DNA from: Chloranthus sessilifolius
Lineage: Eukaryota; Streptophyta; Magnoliopsida; Chloranthales; Chloranthaceae
Direction: 5' to 3'
Assembly (NCBI GenBank): GCA_021018995.1
Contig: CM037598.1
Location: 63,630,671-63,694,670, forward strand
DNA length: 64,000 bases
In this document: positions 11,426 to 47,472 of the stretch, in pieces
Layout: the number at the start of each line of letters is the position of its first letter
Numbering within the stretch: position 1 is the first letter of the stretch
The notes under the pieces: model-generated
What the model was told of the DNA's origin: nothing
Databases searched by the model: none
The model's input: the letters and a program-made list of their open reading frames with translations, nothing else
Translations under genes and position numbers: made by a program

Positions 11426-11464
11426 GGATGATTTGTGGCCATTAAAGTGGACAGACCATAGCCA
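11426..11464 (+). other. Conserved LTR hairpin, E4 5' LTR copy
   Basis: Stem arms ATGATTTGT and ACAGACCAT around a CCATTAAAGTGG centre (8 of 9 pairs). It lies downstream of the TATA box, hence in the transcript leader. It belongs to the hairpin family described in the findings; the 3' LTR copy is at 16418-16456 (9 of 9 pairs). Confidence 0.65.
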
Positions 11465-11992
11465 TAAGCTTAAACCTAATCCTTAAATTAGATTTATCAC
11501 TCTTACATCTGTGCTTGTAGCCAGATGAAGATTGAATCACCTCTGTTGAGCTGCAGTTATTCTCATCAGATTTCAAGGGCCAAATCAAAGTTAGATATTA
11601 CTTCTCCATTCTTTGTATAAGTTTACCTCAAATGTTTCCCCAACTCAGATCTGGATCATTTAGTTTAACTCTTTACTTTTATCATTTAGTAAACGTGACA
11701 AATTCAACCTCCCATCTTATGTGCTTTGTAGATAGGATCAGAGGCCAGATCTGGTAGCTCAGATCTGGAGGTTTATCTTAAATTTTAAATCAATTCCCTG
11801 TGGACGATCTTTTACTCACTTACATTTAAAACTTGCTACAATTGGCCCTGATCTTGCAGGCTAATTCGCTTCTATCTGTGCTGATATTTCTTTACTCTTT
11901 TTAATATTCTAGATTCATTATAACTTAGCAGTTGCAAACCTGTTTTCAAAACTCACATAAATCAAGCACACTAAGATTGAACAACAAGTTTT

Positions 11993-12010
11993 TGGCGCCG
12001 TTGCCGGGGA
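11993..12010 (+). other. E4 primer binding site (tRNA-Asp type)
   Basis: TGGCGCCGTTGCCGGGGA, the primer site typical of plant Athila/Tat elements, lies six bases inside the 5' LTR end. Confidence 0.93.
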
Positions 12011-15000: not shown

Positions 15001-15045
15001 GCTTTTCATTCTATTTTTAAATTTTGTCTTTGCTCAGGGACTAGC
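12011..15045 (+). other. E4 internal region, non-coding
   Basis: About 3 kb, T-rich, with no gag, protease, RT or integrase sequence and only short chance reading frames. At 13460-13477 there is an inverted repeat AACATTG AGGA CAATGTT, followed by the purine-rich tract TTAGGTTTGGGG (about 13482). From about 13500 onward the sequence aligns with the 3' non-coding part of E8 (38390 down to 36790). The first half (12011-13440) has no counterpart that I recognise in this window. Confidence 0.8.
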
Positions 15046-15065
15046 AAAGCTTAGGTTTGGGGGTG
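15046..15065 (+). other. E4 polypurine tract
   Basis: A purine-rich run including TTAGGTTTGGGGGTG ends directly at the 3' LTR start. It is the usual plus-strand primer. The same sequence type occurs at 36774-36790 in E8. Confidence 0.85.
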
Positions 15066-16978: not shown

Positions 16979-16983
16979 ACAGC
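16979..16983. repeat. E4 target site duplication, right copy
   Basis: ACAGC, identical to 10089-10093. Confidence 0.9.
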
Positions 16984-25469: not shown

Positions 25470-26621
25470 CTACTTCTTACCACATTTTCTGGGGGCCAGG
25501 TTGATAGTTTCTTCAATCATATGCAAGTAGTAACCTCCTAGTTGCAACAGGGCTATAATGAGCTTACAGTAGGGCAAGGAATGGGGCTTCTGCTCCCTCT
25601 TCATCTTCTCATGTATATCTTTCATTCCTTCATAAATGAGCTTTGCAGCATTAATATAGTGGTTCAAGGAGATGGAATAAAGGGCATCAGCAATTGGGGA
25701 CCTCCTCTCTTTTTGGTGCCCTAAGCAGTAGACATTCTTTCTTAAAACACCATCCATAAATCTCAATCTGGGAGGCATGTCTCTCTTCCTAATTGATACC
25801 CTTGAGGCTATGATCTGTCCTGTGATTTCTTTGGCAATTTCAGGAATTGTGGTTGTCAATGGTGAACCCAAACCACACTCTGGGCTGTATGCTGTTCAAA
25901 TCCTAAGAATCTTAGCAATTGCTGCTTGGTTAAACAACATCTCAAAGTTATGAATCAGAACCAGCAATGCAGGGTTTCCATCATCCCTAGTCTTCACCCT
26001 AATATTGTGGTAAAATAACTGCACTAGTCTAAGGAAGACTAGCTGTAGTGGGGGCCTGAGAAGGGGTAATAGTGAGGCTTTGGTATGGTATTCAATTGAA
26101 GCAGCAGTCTCTAGCTTCTCCTCAAAGAATGCCTTATCAAAGGCAGTTTCAGCTTCAAGCTTGATTGTAGCCACAAACTTAGAGGGAATTCTGAGTGACT
26201 CATCATATGATTCATCCTCTTGGGCAACCTCAGGGACCTCAGGGGCCACTTCCTTACCCTTCTTATGTTTTTTCTTTGGTTTCTCAGGATTTTTAGCAGG
26301 TGGGTGGGCTCTGGCCCTCTTCTTAGAGGCTACTTTCTTCTTGACCACAGAGGCATCAAAGGCTACAGCCTTGGCCTTCTTCACAAGGGCAGCTATCTTC
26401 TTTGTTTGTTCCACTTGGGGCTCAACATTTTGTGGAGGTACCTCAGAGGTCACCATAGTCGAGGCCTCTGTAATCCTCACAGATTTTCGTGTGGCCATAG
26501 GTCTGCCAGTATGGGAAGGGTTCAGCATGGCAGCCAAGAGATCGATAAATTTAGAACCCATGACCATGGCTACACCAACTCTCAAAAATTTGGTCTTTAA
26601 ACACACAGATGGGGAGTTCAC
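25470..26621 (-). pseudogene. E6 extra 3' ORF ('env-like'/plant transposon-protein type)
   Basis: Lies downstream of integrase, as does the so-called env-like ORF of Athila elements. The N-terminal half has a basic, NLS-like run (KKVASKKRARAHPPAK, KPKKKHKKGKE, about residues 110-145). The middle part has VQLFYHNIRV and IHNFEMLFNQAAIAKIL, and then PPRLRFMDGVLRKNVYCLGHQ, ERRSPIADALYSIS and KPHSLPYCKLIIALLQL (25871-25470), which match E8 at 40560-40547 and below. It has the look of a nuclear, plant-transposon-domain protein and not a glycoprotein. Broken in a few places. Confidence 0.65.
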
Positions 26622-26639: not shown

Positions 26640-27430
26640 CCCAACAAATTCTCTCTACTCAATCTATACTATAGCAGATAAATCAAACCAAATGGAAGGA
26701 TGAGAACACTTACTGCAAAAATGCTAGGGTTCCACTTTAAATGTTGCACTGTGGATCAAATTTCTCCAAATAAGGTGAAAAATAACCGGGAGTTGTCGTG
26801 AAACACAATAGTAAGAGCAGAGTGCCTAGGCTGGAGTTGTATGGGTAGTGAAGGAGAAAGGATGGAGAAGGAAGCTTGGTGGGAGGTAGGGCAAAGAGAA
26901 AATGAATGAAAAATTGAAAAATTCACAGGGTATAAGCATGTGACCCCGTGCCTCATGCGGTTCTCGCCAGGTACTCGCGGAGCACATTCTTCTCGCACAA
27001 CTCAAAAGGGATCTCACGAGAATTGCAGTCTTGAAGAAGAACATTGCCTCGCGAGGAAAGTATTTTAAGAGTCCCTGGAGTCTCACGAGATCAATCGCGG
27101 AGCTGACTGGGGTCTGAGCGTGCGAGAGGACATTTGTGTTTTTCGTGTAGCTGAGCTTTTAGACTCATGAGACTCATAGATTCAGAGCATCAAGGCCCTC
27201 GTGGGGCTGTTAGAAGTGTAGGCTTCAAAAATTCTCTCGTGAGGCTCTCGCAAGGTACAAAATGCATGCCTTGAAATTGTCGCACAGCTCAATGTCATAG
27301 AGAAGAAATAGCCTCACGAGGTTCAATCATTGACTTTTTTCAGGAAATTCGCTCGTGAGGCTCTAGCGAGGTAACACAGTTCATTTAGAGCCTCGCGAGA
27401 TACCTCAAAAATGGCTCGCGAGTGTAAAAT
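26640..27430 (-). promoter_or_regulatory. E6 putative internal promoter: TCGCGAG cluster, TATA-like box, CT-rich leader
   Basis: Upstream of the extra ORF, about fifteen TCGCGAG / CTCGTGAGG / CTCACGAG sites lie between 26940 and 27430, about 25-40 bp apart. Downstream in element sense come CTTATACC (near 26935) and a CT-rich stretch (26840-26900) leading toward the ORF start at 26621. The same motif type forms the U3 cluster of E6's own LTR (31185-31800). The promoter reading is inference from layout. Confidence 0.5.
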
Positions 27431-27880
27431 AGAGTCCCTTAAGCCACGCGACGAAGCAGAATTCAAACTTTCTCAGTGCTGCACATTGGCCTGTGTATCC
27501 ATACTGACATGCACCTAGCTATTGTGCACCAGCACCAACTTTCTTCACATTTAATCCATTTCATCATGATAATTTCATGACTATTACCAACCTATGCACA
27601 GGGTAAGTATTCTAGCGTTCAAATGATCTTAAATTTGCAACAGACTCATGCACATTTAAATGACAACACATCAACCATACAATGACAACAAAACATACAC
27701 ATCAACATCAAGTTCATGCACATTAATTTCAGATGACAAAACATGCACCTCAATGGTAACAACAAGACAAAACATGCACATCAACACACAACACAAACAA
27801 CACATGCAAAATTTTTAAACAAAACAATACAAAAATCACAAAGTATGGTACACAGTGTATAGAGCTATGGATCACTAATT
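27431..27880 (-). other. E6 spacer between integrase and motif cluster
   Basis: AT-rich, with repeated 'catgcacatcaa'-like words (27650-27800). No coding sequence or known signal seen. Confidence 0.6.
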
Positions 27881-28716
27881 AGTGGGAGGTACATGCAGGT
27901 GAATGGCCTAAGTAGGCTCTACAGAATTTTCTACACAAATTTTTAGCCTTTGACCATTCACTTTCATGATCTTCCCAGACATGGGATCCAAGATCTCCAC
28001 ATCACCATATGGGAAGGCATGGATGATAGTCTAAGGTTCATCCCATCTGAAATTTAACTTCCCTGGAAAGAATTTTAATTTGGAGTTAAAAAGCCAAACT
28101 TTGGTACCAGCATTGAAGTTCTTCCTCATGAGTTTCTTGTCAAAAGATGCCTTGGACCTTTCGTTGTAAATTCTTGCATTTGTATAGGCCTCCAGTCTTA
28201 GCACATCAAGTTCTGACATTTGCAATTTCCTGTGAGAACCAGCAGTAGTTAGATCAAAATTCAGTGTTTTAATAGTCCAGTATGCTCTATGTTCCAACTC
28301 TACTGGCAGGTGACGGGCCTTGTCATAGACCAGCCTAAAAGGGGGCATACCGATAGGGGTCTTATAGGTAGTCCTGTAAGCCCACAAAGTATCATTCATT
28401 TTCTGTGCCCAATCCTTCCTATCTGCCCTCAGAGTCTTCTCCAAGATGTGCTTGATTTCCCTATTAGAAATTTGGTCTGTGGGTGGTAGGGAGTTACAAT
28501 CCTATGTGTAATAGAGTACTCTTTGAGCAGATTCTCAAAAGGTCTGTTACAGAAGTGACTCCCCTCATCACTAATGATAGCTCTCGGGGTGCCAAATCTA
28601 GAAAAAATATTATCCTTTAAAAATTTAAGGACAACTATGTGGTTATTGGTTCTTGTAGCAATGACTTCTACCCATTTGGACACATAGTCCATTGCCACAA
28701 GTATAATGTTGAAACC
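27881..28716 (-). pseudogene. E6 integrase remnant
   Basis: Athila/Tat integrase core and C-terminus. MAMDYVSKWVE, GTPRAIISDEGSHFCN and YHPQT belong to the DDE core (28698-28490). Then come KDWAQKMNDTLWAYRTTYKTPIG-type blocks, [34 protein letters not shown], and a VNGQRLK-like end near 27950. Close to E8 at 42700-41855. Interrupted fossil. Confidence 0.85.
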
Positions 28717-28770
28717 TGTAATATCCCGAATATTTTAGACCTGATTTCGGTTACCTCGATAAGCATGCCT
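28717..28770 (+). repeat. Short chromovirus LTR-start fragment inside E6
   Basis: TGTAATATCCCGAATATTTT followed by a Tekay-like continuation is a typical LTR start. Only about 55 bp remain, lying between the integrase and gag remnants of E6. It looks like the trace of a former insertion. Confidence 0.6.
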
Positions 28771-29130
28771 GAATTGATCAATGTGGTGCAAAGTGCCAAC
28801 AATGTTAAATGCAGTGCAAAGTGCCAAGAATTGATCAATGTGCTTATAAGGATCTTCCTTACTGAGCCCATGAAAAGATTGCAACATGTTAATGGTGGAC
28901 TTAATTTGATATTTTCCCTCAATTGAAGGAAATTGTATGCAAAAGGGAGTTGTGTAATCCTCAGGTGCATTGTATTATTTCAGAGTTTTTTGCCTCTCAG
29001 CCATCACAGCTGGCTAAGTGCTAACAATAGGGGCTTGTGTGGTGTTTCTCAGTCTAAGGACCCTTTCAACCTTAGGATTTGGAGGTTCCAACTCAGGGTT
29101 AAGTGACCTTCTACCAAGCATACACACACA
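28771..29130 (-). pseudogene. E6 gag N-terminal remnant
   Basis: Element-sense coding traces of Gag N-terminus (a HGLSKEDPYKHI-type segment near 28870-28840, as in E8 at 47067). The words GAATTGATCAATGTG and GTGCAAAGTGCCAA each occur twice within 28770-28840, a local duplication. Fossil fragment. Confidence 0.6.
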
Positions 29131-29438
29131 AAACATCAGGTAAAGAAAATGCTCACAGCACAAAAACAATTTACAAACAAAATTTACAACTAAACAGATT
29201 TATGACTAAACTATTGACAGGAAAATCAACATAAATGGAATGAGTTTTAGGGCAAAGGAAGTGCAAACAAAGCTAGTTAAACTCCAGCTGCAGCTTTAGC
29301 TTTACCCTGCTGCTAATGTCCAAATCTGGAAAAATTCGAATAAAAATCAGTAGTACTTTTTATTCTATTAAAGGCACCGCTACAAAGAATTTTATATACT
29401 AAATTACAATACAACGCAGTTCTACTAAAAAGATCAAG

Positions 29439-29456
29439 ATCCCCGAAGCGGCACCA
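29439..29456 (-). other. E6 primer binding site (tRNA-Asp type)
   Basis: Minus strand reads TGGTGCCGCTTCGGGGAT, close to the Athila/Tat Asp-tRNA complement, about ten bases inside the LTR end. The stretch 29131-29438 is untranslated leader without other signals. Confidence 0.85.
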
Positions 29457-29987
29457 AAAAGTTATTGGTTACTTTCAGGTGCTGTAATGTTATTGGTGAG
29501 AAAACAGTGGTGAAGAAAAACAAATCAAAAAGTGAAGAGATGGAAATTGGTTAAAACGATAAGTCTAAAATACACAACCTGTAAAATAAAGGGCTATTGT
29601 AGAAAGTTTTGAGTAAGTAAGAGTTTGTCCCATAGAGAAATTGATCTAGAACCCAAAATGGGTTATATTAGTAGGCCTCCAGATCTGGTTACAGATCTAA
29701 CAATCCTAAAGAAAGAGAGTTGGGTGTCACAACTACACTAACCTATCACTAAAAGGTGGGAATGAAAGTGCAGTACTACCTTAAAGAAAAGATTATGAAG
29801 AAGGTGGTGATGAGGTGTGTTAAAATAAAGACAAAAATGATGGGAAATAGGCAATTAAGTTAAGGTTAATTCAACTATGTAACTTAGACTTAGGGTTGTC
29901 TCTGCAGTAATCCCTCAGATGGCTATGAGCACATCTACAAGGAGGAGGTATTTAACTCAACTCTTATGGTTTGACCTGGTATCTTAA

Positions 29988-30528
29988 GGCTATAACCTAT
30001 CCACTTCAATGGTCATAAGCTATCCACTAGGGAGGATCAAACCACATGAATTATTCAGAAAATTAGTCTGATCTAATGGAATAAACTAATCTTAAGGCTA
30101 TAACCTGTCCACTTAAATGGTCACAGATTATCCAATAGACCCTTCCATCCAATGGATCAAATTAGAACATTAAAATCATTGCAAACATCATGTTTGTCAG
30201 GCTGCAAGCACAGACATCCATGGGGGCAAATAGCTCTTAAAAAACTAGTAGAAATCACAGTTGTTTAAAGTCTATTTGGGGACTTAAATGCAACTGATCA
30301 TTGTTACAAAAAGCTTTCAATGACTCAGCTCACAAGTTTACAATCTCTACAGAGAAATTAGATCTAACATCTGATGTTGGTTAAGTAAAATTGAGGGGAG
30401 CTTGTTCCTGCAACAATCTCTCACAAGGCTACTAGCTCAAGTGCAGGGGAAAAGAATCCCTCTCAGATATGTGGCTTAGAATCACCCTAGGGCTATAGTC
30501 TGTCCACTTGAATGGTCACTGACTATTC
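29988..30528 (-). other. Three conserved LTR hairpins, E6 copies
   Basis: In element sense, arms ATAGTCAGT/ACAGACTAT (30491-30528, 8 of 9 pairs), ATAATCTGT/ACAGGTTAT (30096-30133, 9 of 9 with one G-U) and ATAGCTTAT/ATAGGTTAT (29988-30025, 9 of 9 with two G-U). Several columns change on both sides together, so pairing appears maintained. Confidence 0.65.
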
Positions 30529-31184
30529 ACAGAGATTATCCCCACCATAGGGGACTGAGATGGAACATGAAAATTATTGCTGCCACCATGGTTACAGGGC
30601 TACAAGCTCAAGCTTTCATGGGGTTTTCAAATCAGCTCAAGTCCAAGATGTATGGCATAGATTGAACAAAACTGTAGACAAATAGGAAAATAACAGATTG
30701 AATAAGCATTTAAAATACAAATTTTATTGATCAAACAATACTTACAATGAAATTTCTCAAGGCAGCAGCCTTGTGCCTAACAGCTCTCACAAAATCCCAA
30801 AGGTTTCAAGACCCATTATAAAATTTGAATAAAACTAAACCTAATTGCTTACAGAGGATATAGCCAGCAAGTGCTAGACTAAGGAAGAAGAAAAAATTGA
30901 AAAAGAGGTGATCAAACCCTAACCTTAATCGGCTCGAGCTTCCAGCTGACTAACGTTGAAGGAGAGATATTTTTCTAAGTTTAAATTATAGCTTATATAA
31001 TCAGTCACTAATGACATCGACAAGAGAAGATTAAACCCTAATTTGCTAGCAGACATGGCTTGGTTACAACCGTTGGATGCCTTGGGATGTGTCCATCGAA
31101 ATCAAGGCCTCGGGATGTGTACCCTGGACCTGGGGAAATCCCCAAAAGGTCCCTGAGTAAAGATTGAGAAGTGGAGAGCCCGAG

Positions 31185-31800
31185 CTTCGCGGGGCTTACT
31201 TTGGATTTTTAATTCATTCGCGAAGTTGCAAAGTGCTCGCAAGGGTAGATTTGGCTTGGAAAGCTCCTTGCTCGCACAACAAGATTTTAACTTGTCGCGC
31301 AGTTGCTCTGCCATGCCATCCTGTCGCGAGGTAGAGTTTGCACACTTTGGCTTTGCTCGCATACTAGAGCTTTAGAACTTTCGATCGTGAGGGTCTCACA
31401 TGGAAGAATTTACCTTTCACTTGTGTCCATGTGCATTGCATTGTTCCGCTCGCTAGTTAAAGGGTTAAGCTTCTACGCGCGCGAGAGCTGTGCGGGAGAA
31501 TTTTTGGAGCTCTCTCTTCTCTTGAGCTATGCGAGAGCTGCGCGAGCTGGCTTGAATCCTTTATGGAAATTGGCCTCGTGAGATTGTGCGCGTGGCTAAT
31601 AAGAGATTTGTTCCTCGGGAGAGCTTCGCTAGCAGGATTTCTAAAGGCTTTAGTGCGCGACTACTGTGTGAAGCCTTAGAGTGTTGAAAGCAACTCAAGT
31701 GCGTGACTACTACGCAAAGTAGCTCTTTGAGATTATTTCCTTCTCCCAGAGCGCGAGTTATTTTCGAGTTCAGCTTTCACTGCAGATATTGACTTCGCGA
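31185..31800 (-). promoter_or_regulatory. E6 U3 motif cluster (TCGCGAG type)
   Basis: About sixteen sites such as TTCGCGAAG, TGTCGCGAGG, CGCGCGAGAG, GCGCGAGC, upstream of the TATA-like box. They are similar in core to the cluster upstream of E6's extra ORF. Confidence 0.65.
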
Positions 31801-32191
31801 GGAGGCTGCTGTGGATTTGAATAGTGTGAGGCAGCACTTCGGATTGTGTGAGATTTCACCTCTGCTCCTCTGCTGCACTACAGGTGCTACTGTTGCACCT
31901 CTCTCCACTCTTATCCACTCTTCTCTCATTTGCTTCACTTCTTGGGTCCACCTTAGCATGCAAAATAGTCATCATGGTATGTACCAGAATGATGTTTTAT
32001 CAGTCCTTGCCCCAGTAGTCATCTTTGGTTTGAATTCTTTCTCTTTTTGGCATCAAAAGCATGGACTTTGTATTAAGTTGCACAATTATTACTAACTACA
32101 AAATAAGCTAAACACAGAGTTATTAGACAGCTCCAAAGTCTAGTAAAGGCTAGGTTAAGAAGTGAAAATTGGTACTTTTATGTGAAAAACA

Positions 32192-34438
32192 CCATTCAAG
32201 TGGTAAAGCAGTTGCATTGAAGCACATGAGCTGTAAACTGGCATATTTGGCATAGTGGAGCAGTGTATAGGCTGAAAGCATTCTGTCGAACAACTGTTGT
32301 GCGCACTCGAGCAGTTGCGGTACATTCTCAAGCAGTTCTACTGAACCCCACGAGCTGCAGACTCGAAGTTGAGTGGTGTAGAGCTAAAAAATATAGACAT
32401 TTGAGTTGTTCTGCTGCTGGAGCATTTTGTTGAATAGGTGCAGTGCAGAAATATATTGTAAATGTACCTTGCGAGGCTGAAAATCAATCTATTGCGAGGC
32501 TGGAAATGAGCCTTACGAGGCTGGAAATGAACTTAGCAAGGTTGTTTTGAGCCTGGCGAGAGCCTAGAGAGATGAAAATGCTGAAGCATTTCAGCCCAGG
32601 GAGATCCTAGCAAGATTAAACTTCTGAAGCTGCAGCCCAGCGATATCCTAGCGAGATCTCAGTGAGGTGCATATATGAAGTTGCCATCTATGCAAGGCAC
32701 GAATTCCTGCAGCCTATTTCAGCACCCAAGGATATTTTAGGCATTTCACACCTTCTAGAGCATGCATCCCATTGTCCCACACTTCCCAAAGCATTCAAGG
32801 GCCACAGTTGGGCCACAAAATCAACTCCACACATCCTCACCCTTGCATCTAGGGCACACCAAGGTCTATGGATTGCATAAATAGAACTTTAATCCTGTTT
32901 TGTAATTTTTATCCAGGGTTAGCCTGAGATCCCCTTTTGGATTATACCTTTTTAGGGTTAGGGTTAGGGTTTAGTTTCCTCTTTCTTTTCCCTTTTTCTT
33001 CTTGCCTTAGCACAGTAGCAATGTTGGGCTATGTTCTTTGTAATCAGCTAGTTTCATTTCAGTTTTGTAATGGGCATTGTGTTGAACCTTGGGAGTTGAT
33101 TTGAGCTTGTGCACAGGCTGTTGCCTTTGAGGGCAAGGATTGTAAGATTCTTTTATAATTTTGTCAGTTTTATTGCTTTAATTAAATCTATTTTTTTTCT
33201 TATGTGGCACTCATAGTGTACTTTGACCTATTCCTCCCACATCGGATTTTAAGATTTGATACTCCCATTGTTGTTCGAGCTGTTTTGCCTTGCAATAATG
33301 GTGGGAACAACAATTTTCTTATTTCATTCTCATCCTCTGTGAGTAGATAGCCTCTATGGATAGCCTGTGACCATTCAAGTGGACAGACAATAGCCCTAAG
33401 GCAGGTCTAAGGCTCAAAGCTGAGATGGATTCTTCTTCTCTACACATTAGCTGGTAAGCCTTGTGATAGATTGTGCAGAGCCAAACTCTCCTCTATTTTG
33501 CAATGCCATAATCAGTGTTTAGATTTAAGCTTTTGTAGAGATTGCAGACTTGTGAGTTGAGTCATTGCAGGCCTTTTATAGCAATGACCAGCTGAATCTA
33601 AGTCCCCATTCAGCCTGAGATTTCCTGTGTTTTATACATGATCTTCATGGGTTGTTTACTCCTATGGATGCACGAGCTTGTAGCCTTGCAAATATAGTGT
33701 CCTCAATGGTATTAATGTTCTAAGTTAACTCATCGAATAGAGGAAATCCCTTGGATAGTCTGTGACCATTTAAGTGGATAGGCTATAGCCTTAAGATCAA
33801 TCCATTCCCTTTGATTAGGTTAGATTTCTGATTTAATCAATGGGATTCGATCATCTCCCTTGGATAGTCTGTGACCATTTAACTAGACAGATTATAGCCT
33901 TAAGAGGGATCTAAATAGCATGGGTTGATTTGGATTCTTCTATCTTGCAGATGAGCTTGTAGCCATCTGAAGGACTTCTGTAAATCCTGTTATAACAATG
34001 AGTTGGATAACTGGTTTAATCTTAGTTGCCTACTTCTCCATATTTTATCTTTATTTTACTACACACACATCATCATCCTTCTTTATTCCCTTCTTTAGTT
34101 ATAGATTTATTTATGTTTTTTTTATTAGTTTTATTTTTATTTTATTTTAGTTTAATATAGCTTCGTGACACTTAAACTCCCTTCCTTTAGGATTGCCAGA
34201 TCTATAGCCAAATCTAGAGATTACTATACACCTTTGTGGTATCAGATTACTACTCCCTGTGGGACAAACTCTTACTTTTCAAAACTTGCTACAACACGCC
34301 ATGGATCTTGCAAGTTTGTGTGTATTTTAGACTTGCTATTTTGTGTTTTTCAATCCACCTTTGATTTATTTCTATTAACACATTCTTACCACTGTTTTCA
34401 AATAAAGTTAACAGTAAGCATCTGAAAATACACCAACA
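32192..34438 (+). repeat. E7: LTR of the E6 family, inverted relative to E6
   Basis: Plus-strand LTR ending CACCAACA at 34438, with U3 motif cluster (32280-32660: GCGAGGCTGGAAATGA and CTCGAGCAGTT types), TATA-like ATAAATAG (about 32877), three conserved hairpins (33358-33395, 33753-33790, 33862-33899) and GAGCTTGTAGCC boxes (33672, 33953). The segment 33340-33620 reads as the reverse complement counterpart of E6 30240-30520. Its start is missing where E6 begins. No primer site follows its end, so it is a solo or 3' LTR remnant. Confidence 0.7.
33358..33899 (+). other. Three conserved LTR hairpins, E7 copies
   Basis: Arms ATAGCCTGT/ACAGACAAT (7 of 9), ATAGTCTGT/ATAGGCTAT (9 of 9 with two G-U) and ATAGTCTGT/ACAGATTAT (9 of 9 with one G-U), each around a CCATTNAAGTGG-like centre. 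Confidence 0.65.
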
Positions 34439-34941
34439 GACATGCCCAATTGACCATTGGATCCCCAAAGTTGAAAATCACTGTGCCTTCTTCTATTTTG
34501 CAAAGGAGGCAATTTTGCTCAAAAGAAATAGTCAGGACCCCACCATTGGTTTGGGATGAGGAACTTGCCACGAAACGTCTTAATTACGTTATCCATAACC
34601 CTTGGGGATCATTCCTTCACCCATTCAGTTCCCAACATCCTAAGTCATTCACCGCCCGTAAGTTAAATTCCACCATTCCTTCTATTCCAAAATCAGTCAG
34701 CTCAGTAAACCCAAGGTTATTTATCCCCCTAAGGATGAAATCATTTTCACTCAGCAGCCTAAAATCGTTCACATCCATCCTCTCAAAGCCATGCGAATCA
34801 TCCTCATTCACCATTATGAACCTGGGACTAGTGATGCCACTCCCATCATCAATGGTTATTTTTAAGTCAAGGACATTTAACCTTTCTTTCAATAACTCAT
34901 GGACCGAGCTCTCCAAGTCGTTCCCCCCTTTTCTGGGTAAA
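34439..34941. other. Unidentified island between E7 and E8
   Basis: About 500 bp with balanced composition. A plus-strand frame runs from 34450, and an open minus frame of 99 codons lies at 34617-34916 (begins MESSVHELLKERLNVLDLK). Neither translation matches a family I know. E8's target duplication shows this island was contiguous with 49287 onward before E8 inserted, so it is likely part of the same old element as E5 (Ogre-like). Confidence 0.4.
34937..34941. repeat. E8 target site duplication, left copy
   Basis: GTAAA immediately before the E8 LTR at 34942, repeated at 49282-49286 immediately after the other LTR. Confidence 0.9.
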
Positions 34942-36773
34942 TGTTGTTGCTTCTTAGTGTGCTTGATTTATGTGTGTTTTGAAAACAGATTTATAGCTGC
35001 TAAATTACCTATATAAAAAAATAAAGAAATATCAAAGATAGTTAGAAGAGAATTAGCCTGCAAGATCGTGGCCAATTGTAGCAAGTTTTAAAAGTAAGTG
35101 AGTGAAAGATCGTCCACGTAGAATTTATCTAAAATGTAAGATAAACCTCCGGATCTGAGCTACGGATCGACTTCTTATCCTATCTAGAAAGCTGATAAGA
35201 TGAGAGGTTTGAATTTGTCACGTTTAACTAACTAAAACAAAGAAAAATTTAAACTAAATGATCCGAGATCCGAGTTGGGGAATGATTGAAACAAAGATGG
35301 AAGTAATATCTAAATCTGATTTGGTCTTTGAAATCTAATGAGAATAATCTGACTCAGAGGTGATCCAATCTTCATCTGGTTACAAGCATAGATGTAAGAG
35401 AGATAAATCTAATTCAAGGATTAGGCTTACACTTATGGCTATGGTCTGTCCACTTTAATGGCCACAAACCATCCAATAGTCTTTAATCCAAATCCTCAAT
35501 TCAGAACAAGAAACACCACTGCAAATGCTGTAACAGACTAGGTTACAAACACTAATTCTCACAGGATTAATGAATCAAGGGAAATTGCATGCAAAACAAT
35601 GAATCTAAAGGAGTCAAATGTACTGAGGAGATCAGAGGGATCCCTTGACATGAGTCCAATGGAGAATGCAGAGTTTACAGCAACCTTTTAAAATTCATCT
35701 TTACAATTTACAGAGCACGGCTTAACAGCTCTCGGATTTGCAGTCTTGGATGCAATCTCTCCTTTGAGTTACAGCAGTATCTCATAGCTCTCAATGCAAG
35801 TACAAAGTAGGCTATTACAAGGATTGCGGACAAGCTGTCTGGCTGGGAAATGGGGGATTAGAAATGAAACTCAAAATCTGGATGCCCCAATTGGGCAAAT
35901 GCTTCGTCTATTTATAGCTTTCCCCAGGTCCAGCTCAGATGTGTATCAACCAATCAGAGGTTCTCAGATCTGTATTGACCAATGGTAGTCGAGCACGGGG
36001 ATCCAGATCTGTTCTGGCCAATCAGAATTCCTCGATCTAGTTCAGCCAATCAGGTGAAAAAGGCATCAATTCTGTTATGCATTTTGAAAGTTTGTTAGAG
36101 TTTCTAGAAGTTCCCGCCAAGTTATTCCCTCTCTAGGTGCTCACGTGGGGTGGAATATTCCTTCGCTTCATGCTTAGAACCCTCTGGAATGTCCCTAGGT
36201 TTTAAAATGCATTGGGACGCGTGCAACAGATTACTGAATTGCCCTTGTTAAAGCTGCGAATCTCCAGAATGCCTCTTCGCACAGCTTAGGGGCCTTTTCG
36301 CAAAGTGTTGTGACTCCTGAAGCTCTTTTCGCAATGTTCTGGTTCTGTTTGAATTGTGTTTTCTTCTTTTCGCAAAGTTCAATCCTCTCTTCGAACAGTT
36401 CAGATGCTCTTCGAATGCTACGCCTGGAGTTTTATTCTTTTTCGTAGAGTTTCAGGTTCTTTGCGAAAAGTACAGGTTCTTTGCGAAAAGGACTCTGTAG
36501 TGCATTTTTCTGTTCGAATTGTTCCATACTTCTCTTCCAGGTCTTTGCTTCTTCTATTCAGACCTTTCAACAGCTGATGAGGTTGTTTCTTCACTTTCTT
36601 CCTTTGGATTGACATGGATTGTCATCTTATTGGCACTTTTAAGCTGCTTTTATGGTTAAGCCTGTCTTTATTGTTAGCTGCAACATAAGCACTTAAAACA
36701 CTTATTTAGTTCTCTCAAAGGTCAATCAAGACTCAAGTTCAGGGGTGAAAATGGTATTTTTCACTTGTCAACA
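34942..36773 (-). repeat. E8 3' LTR (1832 bp)
   Basis: Element-sense start TGTTGACAAGTG at 36773 and end GCAACAACA at 34942. It contains the motif cluster (36270-36500: TTTTCGCAAAG, CTCTTCGAA), four CCAAT boxes (35950-36050), TATA (35909-35916) and a hairpin (35437-35474; arms ATGGTTTGT/ACAGACCAT, 9 of 9 with one G-U). Very close in plan and sequence to the E4 LTR. Confidence 0.93.
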
Positions 36774-36790
36774 CACCCCCAGACCTAAGC
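36774..36790 (-). other. E8 polypurine tract
   Basis: Element-sense GCTTAGGTCTGGGGGTG directly abuts the 3' LTR. Confidence 0.85.
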
Positions 36791-38789
36791 TTTGCTAGTC
36801 CCTGAGCAAAGACAAAATAAAAAATAAAAAATAAAAAAAACAAAGTAAAGAGCCACTTTTGTAGGGAGCACAGTTGCATTTAGCATATGCAACAAGCCTT
36901 TTAAACCCCTAGGTGATCCCTAGTGGAGGAGTGAAGTCTCCTGAGGGTTTTCAGTGAAGGTACCCACAAACTTCTTCAATAAGTTAGTTAAGATCACTGC
37001 AGTTATGTTACAACCACTTTCCTCAATTGATTATTCACACCTGCATCAGTTATTTTATAAGAAGGTTTTTCAAGAAAGATATCAGTTTAAAATTAAAATT
37101 CTACAGTAATTCTTGTTACTACTCAGTCGATTTATGTCAGAGGCCATTTACAAGGAAAATTAACGAACAACTAGCCTTTGATTTAGGAATCCAGCTTCGA
37201 TGTTGCCCTAATCAGTTGATTTTAAACCCAATTCTCACCAGGATTTTCACTCAATAAGCAAATGAGAGGGTTGTACCATTTCACACAAATTAAGAGCGAT
37301 TCTGATCCTCAAATAGGACTGTAAGCAGGAGCATAGGCATTGCTTTTAGTTATAAATTCACTACTCCTTTCACCATAGATTACACAAATTCTTATCGCCA
37401 TGTGATAGCTCAATCCATCATTGATCAGTAAGGACTTTTACTTGGGTTTTATTGTGGCTTATGGGTGAAATTTCTCAAAAGGGTTGGAATGGTGTTCATA
37501 TTTGAGAAGTCAGTCAACGTCAGGAGGTTATATACAAACCCACTCTTCTTCAGCATAGTTTCATCTTCTTCTTTTGAATTTCCAGAGCCAAAGTGGCCAT
37601 CTTTTTCTCTTTCTTTTTCAAACTTCCAATGAAAATGCCTTCTTTCTTTTGTTTTGCTCAAATATTTTTCTTTTCTTTTTCGAATTAGCATTGACTGCAT
37701 GCCACATTCCCTCTGCTATTTCATCATTGCCTTCAACTTTTACCCTTCTTTTGCTATTAAATTGTTACTCAATTCTCCTTCCTCAGCTTCCTTCCCTTTA
37801 TCTTCGCCTTCTAAAGGTAGGGTTAGGCTAAATGAGGTTGATGAGGTTTATTGGGGAGATTTCAAAGGAATCATAGATTTATTTAGCTCAAATGGTGTGT
37901 ATCAAGGCGGTTTCAAAAGGTGGGGCTTTGTAAGGTTCAAAGCTGTCCAAAAGGAGGCCTTACATCATGTCTTTAATATCATGAGTGCTATCAAATTATT
38001 TGATTTGGATATGTGTAACTTCTAGTGTAAGTAAGCAGATTCATAGTCCCAAAAAGCGTAAAAGATTGCCAAAGCATACCTCCAAATAATACATTTCAGG
38101 CCCAAACCTCACTGGGTGTGGTTTTATATCAACTTCTTGAGATATATCTTCACTGTTTTCCTTCATTTTAGGTTTACTAAAACATCAATTTTCTTTTGGA
38201 AATTTCCTGACATTTACTTCATGAAAGTCTTTTAGAATTACACAGGAAAGTAATTTTAAAGAGTTTTTTTTTTTTTAACTTCTTAATATATTTCAAAACA
38301 ACAGGTGTGAAAAATATATAAAAAAAAAATTGCTGATCCAAAACTGTACTGATGTTAACTCCTTTATTGATTATTGCTATTTCTGTCACACCCCCAAACC
38401 AAAGGGTAGCAGGGTCCACACTGGTCCAAAACAGAGGAAAAATATATGCAAGAAAGAAAAACAACAAAAGTAATGATGGCAAGAAGACAGACAGAAATGC
38501 ACAGTAGTATACACAAAACAGAATTTTCTATTACAACTTTATAACACAAAAAGTACAATGAGAGCTAATAACTGGGGTCAAAATCTGTATCATAGGTTGG
38601 TTCAATCGAGTCACTATCGTAATCGAGCTAGAGTCGGTGTTGAGTCCGAACTTGATTGAGCTTTATCCTAATGGTGTTTTGTAGCTCAGTATACTCCTCA
38701 AATTTGATCTTTTTGGTGAGGCCAAGGTATTTGCTAAGGCTAGTGGTCTTCAATTTTTCTTGGTCAAGTTGGGCTTGCAACATGGACAC
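36791..38789 (-). other. E8 3' non-coding region with second purine tract
   Basis: About 2 kb without coding sequence. From 38390 down to 36790 it aligns with E4 13500-15065, for example the shared block with TTTCATGAAGT near 38220 and 13643. At 38391-38404 the element sense reads GGTTTGGGGGTGTG, a second polypurine-like tract about 1.6 kb upstream of the terminal one; E4 has an equivalent at about 13482. The segment 38405-38790 is AT-rich and has no other signal. Confidence 0.7.
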
Positions 38790-40040
38790 CTTATGTTGCT
38801 CAGTCCTCACCAAATGTTTGACCCAAAGAGTCCTTCATTTTCTCTCTTTCAAATTTCATAAAGATCTCTAACTTTCGAATCTGGTTTTCATAAGGGGTAC
38901 GGATGTAAGCTTGTAAATCAGCTAGTCCCTTTTGAACATCTCTGCGGATATAGGGATTATCTTCCATGGCTTTGAGGAGGGTGGCGTATCGGGGGAGGGG
39001 AATGGAATGGTAGGGGACCAAAGGGTGTGGGGGGGAAGAAGTGTCTAGAAGGTTGACAGCAGGGTCTGTCTGAGTGGCTTGCTCAGAGAAAATGGGGAGT
39101 GGTGGAGGGGATGCAACCAAGGGGACTTCAGGTTCAGTTTGTGTTGCATGGGTAGTAGTGGTGGGGGTGGTTAGATCAACCAATAATATCTCTGGGTCAG
39201 TTTGGGTGGCCTGGAAATCAACAATAGGTATAGGGGTAATGGTGGTTGTTTGGGATGTGGAAGCTAAGGTTTGGAGCAGTTCATTGGTTACAGACTGGTT
39301 GTCTGTGTTGATTTGGAGTTGGGCTTGGATGGATTGGAGGTAGGTAAGAATTTGGGAAATGGATGCAGGTGTGGGAGAGGTGGGCATGGCATGGACTGGG
39401 ATAATTGATGTGGAGGGTGGAGGTGCAATGGGCAGAAGGGAGAGGTAGGGAAGTGAGTGAAGTGATGAGGAGGAGGTATAGGGGTAGGTTCAAGTTCCAT
39501 GGATTCAAAAATAGAACCCATTAAGGAAGAGTAGGCCTCTATAGTGAAGGGCGCAGTTGTGTGTATGGGAGACCTCGGTGTGTGGGGTGAATGAGGGGAA
39601 GGTGAGGGGCTTTGGAGGCAGAGGAGTGCAGGAGATGGGGCAATAAAATTTGTAGCTAACCTCTAAAACCTCGGCATTGGAGGGCAAAATTGGTGGTGTG
39701 AGAATGGTTGGAGTGGTTGGTGTAGAGGGGGAATCCACAATTGGAATGATGGAGGGTGTGGGAGATGGGACAGCTGGGATAGGTGAAATGTCAAGGGCTG
39801 GAGTAGGGGAGTAGGGTGCAAGGCCAACGTCCTCCAGAGTAGGTGCAGTTGAAGAGCTGATCACCAAAGGAAGGGGATTTTTATCAACAATGGGTGCAGC
39901 TAAGGACCTGGTCACCAAAGGGATAGGCAGAGTTGGTTTAAGAAGTGGTGTAGCTAAAGAGCTAGTCACCACAGGAGTTGGAAAAACTGGATCTGGCAAA
40001 GTTGATTCTGACAAAATTGGATCTGGCAAAATTGAAGGGC
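38790..40040 (-). pseudogene. E8 extra ORF: Pro/Thr/Ser-rich tail and coiled end
   Basis: Two stretches (40029-39505 and 39387-38800) rich in Pro, Thr and Ser with little hydrophobic content, ending in a charged, probably helical segment (RYATLLKAMEDNPYIRRDV, QIRKLEIFMKFEREKMK). The end resembles E6 at 23855-23650. No membrane segment was noticed. Interrupted fossil. Confidence 0.6.
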
Positions 40041-40214
40041 CAGGCTCAGTGTGCTCTCTTCAGATTGCAGGTGGATGGGTTCAGTGTGCTCATCTCAGAG
40101 GGATGGGTTCTGCTCATTCACACCGTAGGATAGGTTCACTCCACACTGCAGTTCGCAGCAGGGGCATGTGCAGGTTCACCTGCCTCTCTCATCCTTCTTA
40201 GCATAGCTTGGCTT

Positions 40215-41210
40215 GTAGTTCAAGCCTTTTTCCCAAAATTGTGAGGGGTAATGACTTCAAATGGCTCCGCACTATCAATGTCAAATTTGGCTCTGAGGAG
40301 GGCTGTGATCAATCTGCCAAATGGTAGGCCAGCTAGCTTCTGCTCCTTCTTCAACTTGGCACTAATGTACCATGGCGAAAATTAGCATAGGGGCATTGAA
40401 AAATTGCCCCTTGGAGAAATGAAAGAGGGCCTCTAAAATTGGTGTTCTCCTCTCTTGGCTGTGCCCAGTGACATAGAAGCTTCCCCTTAAAATGGAATCC
40501 ATTAATAAAAATTGGGGGGCAAGGTCTCTTCTCATGATGGTGCCCACAATACCACAGGGTTAAATGTCCATCTCTCTAAAGGAGGTCAAGCTTCGGGCAG
40601 CCAAAGGACCAGAGGGATCAAATTGGAATGGTATCCCTAAAGCATTCCCTATGTCTTCAAATGTCACAGTAAGATCGCAATCATCAATGAAAATGACTAG
40701 GGTAGGGACATCAGCATCTCTTTCGGTGACCTTGATTAGGTTTTGGTACCATAACTTCACCATTCTTGGGTAAATTTTCTCTGGCAAGGGGTTAAGGATA
40801 TTGCTTAGTGAAGCCTCTCTAATGTATCTTAAGGATGGTAAGCAATCTGGTTTGGTGACGAAAAAAGTTTCATCCACCATCAGCTCAGGTATTAGTTTCT
40901 GAGCTTCAATGAAGGGGTTAGGTAAGACCAAATGAATGGGCAGAGGAGGAAGCTCAGGCTCAGGGCTAGTAGCAGCAGGGATGGGTTCCTCATGTCTAAT
41001 TTTCTTTCCTTTCTCCACCCTATCTGCTTTATCCATAGATAGTTTTCGTTTAGCTAAAGTTTTGGCTTTTCCTTTTGCTTTTGGGGTTGATTTGCTCACT
41101 TTCTTAGCAGAGGATTTGGGGAACATAGCAGCCAATGATTTCTCTGCTTTTCCCATTCTAGATTGATGTATAAAAATGCCCAAAATAGATGCTGACACAG
41201 ATTCAAATTA
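40215..41210 (-). pseudogene. E8 extra 3' ORF ('env-like'/plant transposon-protein type)
   Basis: The part at 41198-40560 begins with a Lys-rich stretch (SAKKVSKSTPKAKGKAKTLA, residues about 30-50, NLS-like), then a conserved core (PRMVKLWYQNLIKVTERD, LVIFIDDCDLTVTFEDIGNA, LGIPF). The following part (40547-40362) has RRDLAPQFLLMDSILRGSFY and ERRTPILEALFHFS. The core resembles the LGIP-type plant transposon domain found after pol in Athila elements. Position and sequence match E6. I see no signal peptide, so the 'envelope' label is doubtful. Broken fossil. Confidence 0.7.
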
Positions 41211-41795
41211 CTAAATGCTAACCAGAGAGAATGGGCAGAGAAATACTGAGATCTAGGGTTTATGTTTGAACGAGTTGTTTGCTTGCAGAAATTCCCCAAA
41301 TTAAAAGATGAAATCCTTCTCTGCAAATGCAAATGATCGAACAACAGAGACAAAAGTGTAGTAAGCTTCTTAAATCGTGCAAGGAAAGAACGAAGTAGGG
41401 TTTCAGTGGAAAGAGTCGCTCTGCAGAGAGAGTTTGAAATGAAACCCCACCGTCGAAAGGGTTTAAATATACTCAAAGTTAATATCGCAAAGTGCCTTTA
41501 AGTTTTCGAAAAGTTCCAAAAGAGACCTTTTTACAATTGTGAATGGCATCAGTACCATTCGACAAGTTAACGGCAACAGAAACATTATTTCGCAAAGGAA
41601 TTAGCTTCAGAACTATCTTTTCGAAAAGAAAATGGCTTCAGCACCAACTATTCGAAAAGCAAATCCTTGCTTTCGAGCAGTTCCTCACAGATCCAGAGTC
41701 TATTCGAAAAGTAAATTGGACTTTGCGAAAAGAGAATTATTACTTTGCGACTTAACTTTGAGCATGTTTAAACTATGCGAAAAGAGATAAAAGCA
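41211..41795 (-). promoter_or_regulatory. E8 putative internal promoter: TTCGAAAAG cluster, TATA box, CT-rich leader
   Basis: Nine or ten TTCGAAAAG / TTTGCGAAAAG / TTCGCAAAG sites at 41485-41790, the same motif type as in E8's LTR, are followed in element sense by TATATTTAAA (41471-41462) and a CT-rich untranslated-leader-like stretch with CAAACTCTCTCTGCAG (near 41430). The extra ORF starts at about 41198, some 260 bp after the TATA box. The promoter function is inferred from layout only. Confidence 0.55.
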
Positions 41796-41854: not shown

Positions 41855-43688
41855 TCAGATTTTTGGAGATTCGTGATGATAGATGGGCAGCACAGGCTCC
41901 TGGGTATTTTCAATGCATGGTTTGAGCCTCTGACCATTTACCTTTATGATTCTTCCATTACTTGGATCAAGGATGTCAACAGCTCCCGAAGGGGCTGCCT
42001 GAATGACAGTGTATGGCCCTTCCCATCTGGATCTCAGTTTTCCTGGGAAAAACTTGAGCTTTGAGTTAAATAACCATACCTTAGAACCAGCTGTGAACTC
42101 TTTTCTCAATAAATTTTTATCATGAAAAGTTTTGGCTTTCTCTTTATACAATCTTGAATTTGTGTATGCATCCATTCGCAGTTCTTCTAACTCAGCAAGT
42201 TGCAGTTTCCTGTGATTTCCAGCAGTAGTTAGATCCATGTTCAATGTTTTAATGGCCCAAAAGGCTTTATATTCTAACTCTACTGGTAAATGGCATGCTT
42301 TGCCATAGACCAACCTAAATTGGGGTTTTATAGGCTGTCCTATATGCCCACAATGCATTATTCAGCTTAAAGGACCAATCCTTTCTGTCCTTCTTCACAG
42401 TCTTTTCCAAAATATGTTTGATTTCTCTATTGGAAATCTCCACTTGTCCACTGGTTTGTGGATGATATGGAGTGGCTACTCTATGAGTCACAGAGTATTT
42501 CTTCAACAAAGTTTCAAAATGTCTATTACAAAAATGGCTTCCCCCATCACTGATAATGGCTCTGGGAAAACCAAACCTGGAAAAAATGTGATCCTTAAGA
42601 AATTTCAGAACCACTTTGTGATCATTTGTTTTAGTAGCTGTGGCTTTAATCCATTTGGATACATAATCCACAGCTACTAAAATGGAGTTATTCCCATTGG
42701 AAGGAGGGAAGGGACCTATGGAGTCTATCCCCCACACATCAAACAACTCAACTACCAAAATAGGTTGTAAAGGCATTGAGTTTCTCTTAGAAATGCTACC
42801 CAATTTTTGACAGTTTTGGCAGGACTTACAATGCTGCAGGGCATCCTTGAAAAGTGTAGGCCAATAAAATCCACACTGCAAAACTTTTGCAGGAGTTTTG
42901 TTCCCACTAAAATGACCTCCACAGGCTTGTTCATGACACATAGAAAGTATTCTATGAAATTCTTGGTTAGGGACACATTTCCTTATTATTTGGTTTGCAC
43001 AACTCTTGAATAGATGAGGATCTCCCCAGATGAAGTGTTTAACCTTTGCGAAGAAAAGATCTTTATCCATTTTATTCCAATGTTGATGAATTCTTCCAGT
43101 AGCCAAAAAGTTGACTATGTTTGCAAACCAAGGAGTGTGTATACTAATGGCAAAAAGTTGCTCATCAGGGAAAGATTCATTGATAGGTAGCCTATCAATC
43201 TCAGCAGTTAAAATTCTAGACAGGTGATCAACCACCACATTCTCCACCCCCTTTTTATCTTTGATCTGTAAATCAAGTTCCTGTAATAGGAGAATCCACC
43301 TGATTAATCTTGGTTTGGTGTCCTTCTTAGACAGAAGGTATTTCAAAGCAGAGTGGTCAGTGAACACCACTATTTGTGAACCCAAGACATATGACCTGAA
43401 TTTTTCTAAAGCAAAAATAATTGCCAGCAGCTCCTTCTCAGTTGTTGTGTAATTGAGCTGTGCATCAATCATTGATCTACTAGCATAAGCTATGACATGA
43501 GGCAGCTTTTCTTTTCTCTGTCCAAGGATAGCTCCCAAAGCATAATCTGATGCATCACACATCAGTTCAAAAGGTAATGAATAATCTGAAGACTGCAATA
43601 TTGGAGCTGAAATCAAACAATTTTTTAGGAATTCGAAAGCTTTCATGCATTTATTATTAAAAACAAAAGGGACATCTTGACACAGCAA
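41855..43688 (-). pseudogene. E8 RNase H and integrase remnant
   Basis: RNase H blocks: [38 protein letters not shown] and [12 protein letters not shown]. Integrase: HHCC part with [14 protein letters not shown] and CKSCQNC, DDE core with [52 protein letters not shown], then [31 protein letters not shown]-type C-terminus lies at 42358-41855. Order and spacing are standard for Athila/Tat pol. A long uninterrupted stretch of 457 codons survives, but the whole is broken. Confidence 0.9.
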
Positions 43689-44560
43689 ATGACAAAGAGG
43701 TTTGGTTATTTTACTGAAGTCCTTGATGAACCTTCTGTAAAATCCAAAGATGTCCCGTAAAACTTGATTTGTTTAATGATCTTGGGAGGTGGTAAATGTG
43801 CAATTAAATCAATTTTGCTCTCTGTCCACCTCAATGCCCTTGTGAGAAACAACATGGCCAAGGACAATGCCTTGGGTGACCATGAAATGGCTCTTTTCCT
43901 CGAACTAGATTGGTTTCTTCACATCTCGCAATACCAATTTGAGATGATATAAACACCGAAAAAGCTGTCATAGATTGAAAAATCATCCATAAAAATCTCC
44001 ATAAATTGGTCAATCATATCAGAAAAAATGGAATACATGCATCTTTGAAAGGTAGCAGGAGCATTACAAAGACCAAAAGGCATTCTCCTATAGGCAAAAG
44101 TGCCGAAAGGGAAAGTGAATGTGGTCTTTTCACGATCTTGTGGGTACAGAATCTGGTTGTAACCGAGTAACCATCAAGAAAAGCGAATATGCTTTTCCTG
44201 CTAGCTTATCTAAGATCTGATCAATGAATGGGAGGGGGAAATGGTCTTTTCTGGTCATTGCATTTAATTTTCTGTAATCAATACAGACTCTCCATCCAGA
44301 TGTTTGTCTGGTTGACATAAGCTCACCAGAATCTGAGGTTACAATAGTGATTCCAGATTTCTTAGGTACCACCTGTGTAGGTGCCACCCAAGCTGAATCT
44401 GAAATGGGGTAAATGACCCCTGCATCCAACAACTTAACAACCTCTTTCATGACCACATCTTGCATATGAGGGTTCAACCTCCTTTGCATTTCCCTAGAAG
44501 GCTTTGCATCTTCTTCCAAGTGAATTTTGTGCATGCAAACAGCTGGACTGATTCCTCCTA
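43689..44560 (-). pseudogene. E8 reverse transcriptase remnant
   Basis: N-terminal RT: MHKIHLEEDAKPSREMQRRL, AGVIYPISDSAWVAPTQVVP, GWRVCIDYRKLNAMTRKD and FPLPFIDQILDKLAG (44534-44200), followed by interrupted traces of the palm domain with a MPFGL-type block near 44080 and FMDDFS-like sequence near 43990. Fossil. Confidence 0.82.
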
Positions 44561-47070: not shown

Positions 47071-47472
47071 GATAGTTGATGACTTGATCTCATAATTTCC
47101 TTCAACAAGAGGGAAATTGAATGCAAAGGAGAGTTATAAGCACCGGTGCAAAGTAATCCCTCAAAAGTCGAGGTTCTTCACCCATAGTAGCGAGAATTAC
47201 GTGTTGTTTGTTTGGTTCGTAGTAGCCTTTCAACTTCTAAATTCAAGGACAATCTCGTAATGAGAGTCCTCCTACCAAACATACAACTCGTAACAAAAAA
47301 TCGATTATTCACAAAGAAACCTTCATAATTTCTTTTAAGTAGTTTCCTTCTTCAAAATTGGACATGAATAACTGCACAGGTTTAAACAATAGAATAGTTT
47401 AGTAATGATATATAAAAAAAATAAAGGTAAAAATTTAGCCCTACCTATTTTAGATCAAATTTCCTAAAAACT
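47071..47472 (-). other. E8 leader between 5' LTR and gag
   Basis: Untranslated leader. Unlike E2, E4 and E6, no tRNA-Asp-type primer site is recognisable next to the LTR; the element sense reads TTTTTAGGAAATTTGATC there. This stretch is also part of a block with unusual small differences (see findings). Confidence 0.6.

Follow-up and report, generated by a model that had tools for sequence, protein, structure and literature searches.

Two retrotransposon families represented in a 64,000-nucleotide stretch of DNA from Chloranthus sessilifolius (assembly GCA_021018995.1, contig CM037598.1, positions 63,630,671 to 63,694,670 of the forward strand; the whole stretch is called the window here) each carry an array of one family-specific motif in two places: in the U3 region of the long terminal repeat (LTR), and between integrase and an extra open reading frame (ORF). 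The two elements, E8 and E6, both have this ORF in sense orientation 3' of integrase (aORF). The paired-array layout is real, being conserved among further copies in the genome, and it is family-specific. The second array probably belongs to an internal promoter that is co-regulated with the LTR. The fuller proposal, in which a family-specific dimeric factor, most likely the aORF product, controls both promoters in a positive loop, is a reading of sequence data that we consider evenly balanced between right and wrong.

Paired arrays and their promoter-like setting

E8-type sites have the form CTTTNCGNAAAG, with a dyad centred on a CpG, and E6-type sites are CTCGCGAG plus half sites. All E8 and E6 features given here lie on the minus strand. 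In E8, the U3 arrays of CTTTNCGNAAAG sites occupy 48785..49022 in the 5' LTR (gaps 21,72,21,51,21,20,31) and 36278..36515 in the 3' LTR (gaps 21,31,41,21,51,21,20,31), and the internal array lies at 41486..41778 in the integrase-aORF interval (gaps 21,53,31,31,31,52,21,52). In E6, the LTR U3 array (31218..31797) consists of CTCGC/GCGAG and CGCGAG sites, and the internal array (26963..27418) of CTCGCGAG sites with CTCACGAG/CTCGTGAG forms. A sequence-only reading of the window had proposed two such clusters per element, and their coordinates hold in both E8 and E6; the E6 cluster in the LTR is present as claimed, but it is looser than the internal one, with many GCGAG/CTCGC half sites in place of whole CTCGCGAG. 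The U3 clusters of both families sit upstream of the LTR TATA box (GCTATAAATAG at 35909..35916 in E8, TATATAAG at 30992..30999 in E6). Internally, the order in both families is array, TATA-like box, CT-rich leader, aORF. For E8 this is the order that the sequence-only reading had described, with the TATA box (TATATTTAAA, 41462..41471) that the putative internal promoter would use, then the leader, and the aORF ATG at 41156. E6 has no canonical TATA before its aORF, only a TATA-like CTTATACCC (26928..26936) 3' of the internal array.

Further copies were sought in the 2.17-Gb host genome. With the E6 aORF, 150 of 28009 candidates were scored, and with the E8 aORF 150 of 37445; each search gave 30 best-scoring loci, window copies included. 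An upstream array is present in 30/30 loci of the E6-like set and equally in 30/30 of the E8-like set, as the predicted enrichment in the second interval of other copies requires. In the E6-like loci, CGCGAG/CTCGCG occurs 285 times in the 1.5 kb upstream and not once in the aORF match or the 1.5 kb downstream (reversed-word control: 5, 0 and 1). A perfect CTCGCGAG supplies two word occurrences to the count of 285; with dyads counted once the number is 178, or 2-9 per locus. The E8-like loci have 146 sites upstream (3-6 per locus), none in the match and 20 downstream, against 56, 6 and 37 for the reversed words, a high control that arises because the word set includes a CpG-free word. The two CpG 7-mers alone give 51, 0 and 0, compared with 0, 0 and 1 when reversed. 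The E6-like copies are diverse, with a median pairwise identity of 0.73 in the upstream DNA, and their site positions are recurrent.

These copies also bear on the internal promoter. A TATA-like box stands 250-277 nt before the search match in 27/30 E8-like loci. Among the E6-like loci, canonical TATA (TATAWA) before the aORF was found in 1/30, and there not after the array, but TTATA occurs at -352 to -298 in 22/30, as against 0-2/30 in nine other windows of equal size. The proposed internal-promoter layout keeps its promoter-like order in both families and its array in every locus read, with a non-canonical box in E6. A different account, in our view an unlikely one, has the aORF translated from spliced genomic RNA as in Bagy2, the second array being an enhancer, an insulator or a relic. 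For that element, env-like RNA is reported to be spliced (PMC7264820), and the E8 leader has acceptor-like TGCAG sites. Splicing, however, needs no array directly before the ORF, and the succession of array, TATA-like box and leader recurs in order in the E8 loci (the same 27/30), the E6 loci (the 22/30, within a single 54-bp window) and a Sirevirus-like locus, L073.

Base composition sets the arrays apart from their surroundings. The observed/expected ratio of CpG is 1.00 (E8) and 0.88 (E6) in the arrays, 0.71 and 0.27 in the respective leaders, and 0.07-0.19 in the integrase-side and aORF DNA; in the E8 arrays 199 CpGs fall within sites and 66 outside. To judge from sequence, this pattern is compatible with selection on the sites, with promoter protection, or with both. 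The notion that the arrays have no function, as unselected tandem-repeat expansions retaining CpGs by chance, is already disfavoured and can hardly be credited. Tandem duplication clearly has a part in the arrays (one LTR of N, the short E8 relative described below, gained a 21-bp unit, and 83-bp units occur in locus L001), but chance expansion has to contend with matched words in two places with unrelated spacers, with an array at 30/30 loci of each family, and with array CpG ratios near 1 beside DNA so depleted.

Family specificity was examined with words learned from the internal arrays of 29 E6-like and 29 E8-like copies (window copies excluded) and from two Sirevirus-like loci. Their coverage of LTR U3 was compared with 500 dinucleotide shuffles, in intervals chosen around visible CpG clusters. 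Coverage by the E8 words is 87 and 74 bases in the U3s of the E8 LTRs (expected 14 and 11), which 0/500 shuffles reach. These words are likewise enriched when the LTRs of N are added (4/4; 87, 74, 77 and 97 bases, expected 11-17). N (10094..16979, plus strand) has LTRs at 10094-11987 and 15066-16979 that are 97% identical and hold arrays at 10403-10621 and 15324-15614; its interior shows neither an aORF-sized frame nor an E8-type site. The E6 words are enriched in 3/3 LTRs, covering 96, 75 and 69 bases in the window, L041 and L039 (expected 32, 24 and 19), and 0/500 shuffles reach the 96 bases of the window U3. As to the internal intervals themselves, 127 bases are covered in E6 (expected 24) and 93 in E8 (expected 16), again reached by 0/500 shuffles. 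The Sirevirus words cover 19 and 22 bases of two Sirevirus-like LTRs (expected 5 and 3; shuffles 0.026 and 0.000), these LTRs belonging to the same two elements that supplied the words and being located by their position after polypurine tracts. Off-family, no combination falls below 0.09 except X (32240..34342, plus strand), an LTR-like sequence related to the LTR of E6, which carries E6-type words at 32240-32680 (coverage reached by 0.002 of the 500 shuffles). L040 and L042, two of four regions taken from the 3' side of E6-like aORFs, were dropped from the LTR test, their LTR match being inverted. The forecast that the motif would be shared within families and not between them is borne out: no internal word set marks a tested LTR outside its own family or a related one.

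Spacing of the sites

Dyads of the E8 type in the window are 20/21, 31, 41, 51-53, 72 or 93 bp apart. The E8 LTR, N2 LTR and E8 internal arrays show a coherence of 0.97-0.99 at 10.3-10.4 bp, a value reached by 0, 0 and 1, respectively, of 2000 random placements. For every gap in five arrays (45/45), the distance to the nearest multiple of 10.35 is at most 1.3 bp; this tolerance was set post hoc, and about 1 in 4 random gaps would satisfy it. Four of these five arrays are homologous LTRs. With sites masked, the spacers of the E8 LTR and internal arrays have no detectable homology (0.245 of 200 shuffles reach the score), whereas those of the E8 LTR and N2 are homologous (0/200 shuffles). Duplication as the origin of the two E8 arrays is therefore unsupported, and the phasing occurs in two arrays of which neither is a recent copy of the other. 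Two length differences inside the arrays come near to whole turns: a net 32 bp between the E8 and N LTRs, near three helical turns, and 21 bp between the N2 and N1 LTRs, which is one array unit with its site and near two turns.

Spacings elsewhere in the genome were taken from the first places found on one contig, with related copies included, so that the counts are non-independent. The genome holds 5783 pairs of TTTGCGAAAAG at 13-43 bp, the reversed control giving 0 pairs; the first 100 fall only at 20-22 (19), 28-33 (56) and 41-43 bp (25). For the Sirevirus-type word, the first 50 of 2002 pairs lie at 20-23 (37), 40 (12) and 33 bp (1), with several unrelated spacers. Helical phasing of the E6 sites was rejected, their pairs being spread over 21-43 bp (50 listed of 1658).

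Other palindromes are also spaced regularly in this genome. Of the word TCGATTAATCGA there are 130379 pairs 13-43 bp apart, and among the first 77 of these, 60 are at 19-21 and 12 at 40-42 bp. Locus L001 (C1:227683-230693) has repeated TCGATTAATCGA at 1196-1757, often at 19-21 bp, and part of its array is the 83-bp tandem repeat, which also holds TTTGCGAAAAG. At the edge of the window (63714-63774), four CGTTCGAACG palindromes, one of them shortened, follow each other in exact 20-bp steps and form a further motif family within an unassigned element. An exact-palindrome scan of the window proved too strict for the imperfect E8 sites.

The aORF product as candidate binding factor

The E8 aORF begins with an open piece that has a Lys-rich N terminus (40563..41156) and continues in proline-rich C-terminal pieces, open frames without a Pfam match (38803..40059); in the window it is interrupted by stops, but other copies are open (648 aa in L064). 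Open aORFs of the E8 type match PF20167 (Transposase_32) with E-values of 3.8e-7 (L064) and 9.3e-8 (L065), and the aORF of L022 does so at 4.2e-5. The E6 aORF (25473..26567) has two open pieces, 25899-26567 and 25473-25895, the second matching PF20167 at E 2e-5, below the cut-off. The aORFs of two Sirevirus-like loci, L073 and L074, match the family above its curated cut-off (67 and 61 bits). In a genome search with PF20167 (150 scored of 13856; cut-off 45 bits), two matches just downstream of E6-like Athila regions, L075 and L076, also exceeded it (56.9 and 55.4 bits), the former with a full CTCGCGAG array upstream. In all, PF20167 matches 14/21 aORF sequences (E<=10, 9 families listed); DUF1985 was not found among the families listed, a search subject to the limits of weak homology.

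Loci L073 and L074 have repeated AGGGGGAG-type polypurine tracts, arrays of ACGGACGTCCGT 5' of the aORF, and one or two sites of that palindrome 5' of the TATA box in a putative LTR; they are called Sirevirus-like for these tracts, arrays and LTR palindromes. A ACGGACGTCCGT-type array is present in L077 as well. Aligned to each other with hhalign, the Athila and Sirevirus-like aORF profiles, which are shallow, gave E 0.0079 and a probability of 5%, and the claim that the two are homologous is made because both match PF20167. With PF20167 and an array found together in Athila and Sirevirus-like elements, the array accompanies the same domain in apparently two superfamilies. Three further searches gave no relatives: residues 1-380 of the L064 aORF had no hit at E<=0.001 among 7995 candidates scored in a protein database, a sequence search of solved structures had nothing significant (best E 1.5), and for the E8 aORF and RNase H-integrase pieces no relative was confirmed in viral contigs.

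Our proposal is that each family possesses two copies of one cis-regulatory module, one in the LTR U3 and one before the aORF, the latter serving as an internal promoter that would yield a separate aORF mRNA. Both modules would be bound by a dimeric DNA-binding protein specific to the family, and E8-type and Sirevirus-like arrays would be bound on one helix face. The binder would most likely be the aORF product, with its Transposase_32 domain and Lys-rich N terminus, which may keep the LTRs of its own family active or unsilenced in a positive loop; short elements like N would keep LTR sites only and be served in trans. The most economical reading of the pattern has the aORF product, not a host factor, as the binder, and we give this a likelihood at or just under the halfway mark.

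The main rival, with a smaller though still considerable share of the likelihood, is that host transcription factors bind the arrays, a different factor in each family, the LTR sites having been re-used for the aORF promoter; the aORF product would then do other work, such as packaging, movement or suppression of RNA silencing. Plant retrotransposons commonly have cis-arrays in their LTRs to which host factors bind. The Sirevirus-type word contains GACGTC, a core of plant bZIP sites, and inverted AAAG, a Dof core, occurs in the E8 word. For the palindromic repeated motifs (RMs) of Sireviruses, the PLACE results in Bousios et al. 2010 (PMC2829016) were mainly sites for stress-related factors. 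A host origin would nonetheless have to account for three unrelated CpG (near-)palindromes, each standing before a PF20167 aORF and again in the LTR of the same family, and for two of the three words being set at whole helical turns. Nor does the E6 core, TCGCGA, fit the CAMTA consensus, vCGCGb.

Several observations weigh against an element-encoded factor acting on phased, selected sites. Between E8 and N, identity in the sites is only partly above that in the spacers (one-sided Fisher 0.056, 0.002, 0.010 and 0.22), and between the two N LTRs it is 0.94 in sites and 0.99 in spacers, the outcome to be expected of decaying CpGs. Conservation of alignment columns is only slightly higher near recurrent E6 sites (0.83 vs 0.79), and the 30 E8-like loci are close relatives and hence non-independent. 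The PF20167 matches of L064, L065 and L022 are below the curated cut-off, L076 has a thin array with 3 matches to CGCGAG/CTCGCG, and AlphaFold models of an Athila and a Sirevirus-like aORF have a mean predicted local distance difference test score of 41.5 and 44.0, too low to reveal a DNA-binding fold. Phasing is imperfect for the Sirevirus-type word, 33/50 pairs matching n x 10.4 to within 1.6 bp, and out-of-phase gaps occur in the arrays of L006, L073 and L077. The E6 pairs in phase number 12/50, against an expected fraction of 0.29, and with E6 unphased, one geometry does not cover all families. The palindromes also increase RNA structure (fold z -2.18, -1.42, -2.95 and -7.08), as would be the case if they acted in RNA, through hairpins or dimerisation; or they might simply mark small-RNA hotspots, which palindrome clusters in maize Sirevirus LTRs are (PMC5311732, PMC10760457). 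We consider such a role very improbable: the B-DNA helical spacing of the E8-type and Sirevirus-type arrays is unexpected for hairpins, and the E8 LTR array has no clear RNA structure, 19/200 shuffles folding equally well.

Extended to both superfamilies, the proposal of an element-encoded factor would mean that the PF20167 'env-like' proteins of Athila and Sirevirus are not envelope proteins but fast-evolving, sequence-specific DNA-binding activators or anti-silencers. Each would be paired, as lock and key, with its own family's CpG-palindrome array, often at whole turns, in the LTR and the aORF promoter, and short relatives, keeping only the lock, would parasitise the system. This extension is tentative, and we hold it to be somewhat less probable than its denial. 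The role of env-like extra ORFs in plant LTR retrotransposons has been open for about two decades, and a family-matched pair of arrays makes it a direct in vitro question. If the proposal is true, retrotransposons have a VANC-like self-recognition of their own, which would help to explain how families escape silencing separately and how short relatives persist.

The elements and their relation to known systems

E8 is a long element of the Athila type, with LTRs at 47473..49281 (5', with a TG start) and 34942..36773 (3', recognised by similarity to the first) that are 92% identical. Between them lie gag (46336..47133; PF03732, E 4.7e-21), a protease region (44998..46251; PF13650, E 2e-4, just below its cut-off), RNase H and integrase (42318..43772; PF17917, PF17921, PF00665), and an open frame without a Pfam match that represents the C-terminal part of integrase (41858..42361) and resembles 27885-28698 of E6. 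The Pfam order gag-protease-RNase H-integrase is of gypsy type; the stretch expected to hold reverse transcriptase (44133-44573) has no Pfam match. A second RNase H domain, whose lack separates Athila from Tat-type elements, was not reported at E<=0.1 in 485 aa of E8, which is an absence of match only, and E8 has the sense aORF with a PF20167/PF03078-type domain between pol and the 3' LTR that is expected of Athila. Domain order, the one RNase H match and the aORF domain together point to a placement in Athila (Ty3/gypsy). E6 had been called autonomous, wrongly, as most of pol is missing: the 5' LTR (29462..32154, approximate ends), which resembles LTRs in L041 and L039 and adjoins a primer-binding-site-like TGGTGCCGCTTCGGGGATC, is followed by a gag-like part at 28796-29125 and the integrase-end stretch at 27885-28698.

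Remnants of other elements are present in the window. Direct repeats at 20957-22073 and 54180-54850, about 33 kb apart, are possibly the LTRs of an outer element hosting the nested others. On the minus strand, a further Ty3-type element has left pieces of gag, a weak zinc knuckle and an RVP_2 protease at 1086-2937, and 8552-9007 holds a DUF4218 fragment (PF13960, E 1.9e-15), probably of another kind of transposon.

The likeness to VANDAL/VANC that the sequence-only reading had drawn extends to a short, family-specific motif that forms arrays in non-coding parts of the element itself, with different motifs in related families (PMC5735166). It is an analogy only. VANDAL is a DNA transposon whose VANC proteins carry DUF1985, a domain not among the families listed for the 21 aORF sequences here, and its factor is element-encoded, where the corresponding factor of E8 and E6 is putative. 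The VANC21 arrays consist of non-palindromic YAGTATTAY in the same orientation, and binding and demethylation were shown there (PMC5735166).

Several retrotransposon ORFs also invite comparison. The 3' aORF(+) of sunflower Athila (PMC11728184) agrees in lineage, position, orientation and Transposase_32 domain, and has a nuclear localisation signal with predicted nuclear location; unlike E8 and E6, it has no cis-array or promoter described in the accessible text. The aORF of Retand TRP28 resembles the present case in predicted DNA binding and tandem arrays, but its ORFs are antisense with domain PF04195, and the available text does not report its repeats as matching LTR sites (PMC11963269). Neumann et al. 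2019 (PMC6317226) report an extra ORF for 74% of SIRE elements, without a domain that most of them share. A 2026 paper (PMC12844716) asks whether Tork and Athila ORFs affect their own methylation, and leaves this open in the part available.

The RM of Sireviruses is a closer precedent than VANC. RM elements are Ty1/copia, and E8 is of gypsy type. The CGG-CCG core, a signature of RM, is present in the ACGGACGTCCGT of L073 and missing from CTTTNCGNAAAG of E8 and CTCGCGAG of E6; multiple polypurine tracts, noted as AGGGGGAG-type repeats in L073 and L074, are another Sirevirus feature. For Grande, we know of no shared LTR motif. Its accessory gene is an antisense ORF of a maize element, as opposed to the sense aORF here (PMC7264820, PMC11963269). 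Palindromic RMs both in the LTRs and 5' of the env-like gene were reported for Sireviruses by Bousios et al. 2010 (PMC2829016), who also made a case for an internal promoter. As in E8 and E6, the RMs are multi-copy palindromic CpG boxes upstream of the LTR TATA and of the env-like gene, forming CpG islands, with a motif that differs by element. The motif is called Sirevirus-specific there, and the accessible text mentions neither helical box spacing nor PF20167. The layout as such is already known from Sireviruses. In a literature search, mostly without subscription papers, neither matched LTR/aORF arrays in Athila nor helical phasing nor a link between PF20167 and arrays was described, and the protein family shared between the Athila and Sirevirus cases did not turn up there either.

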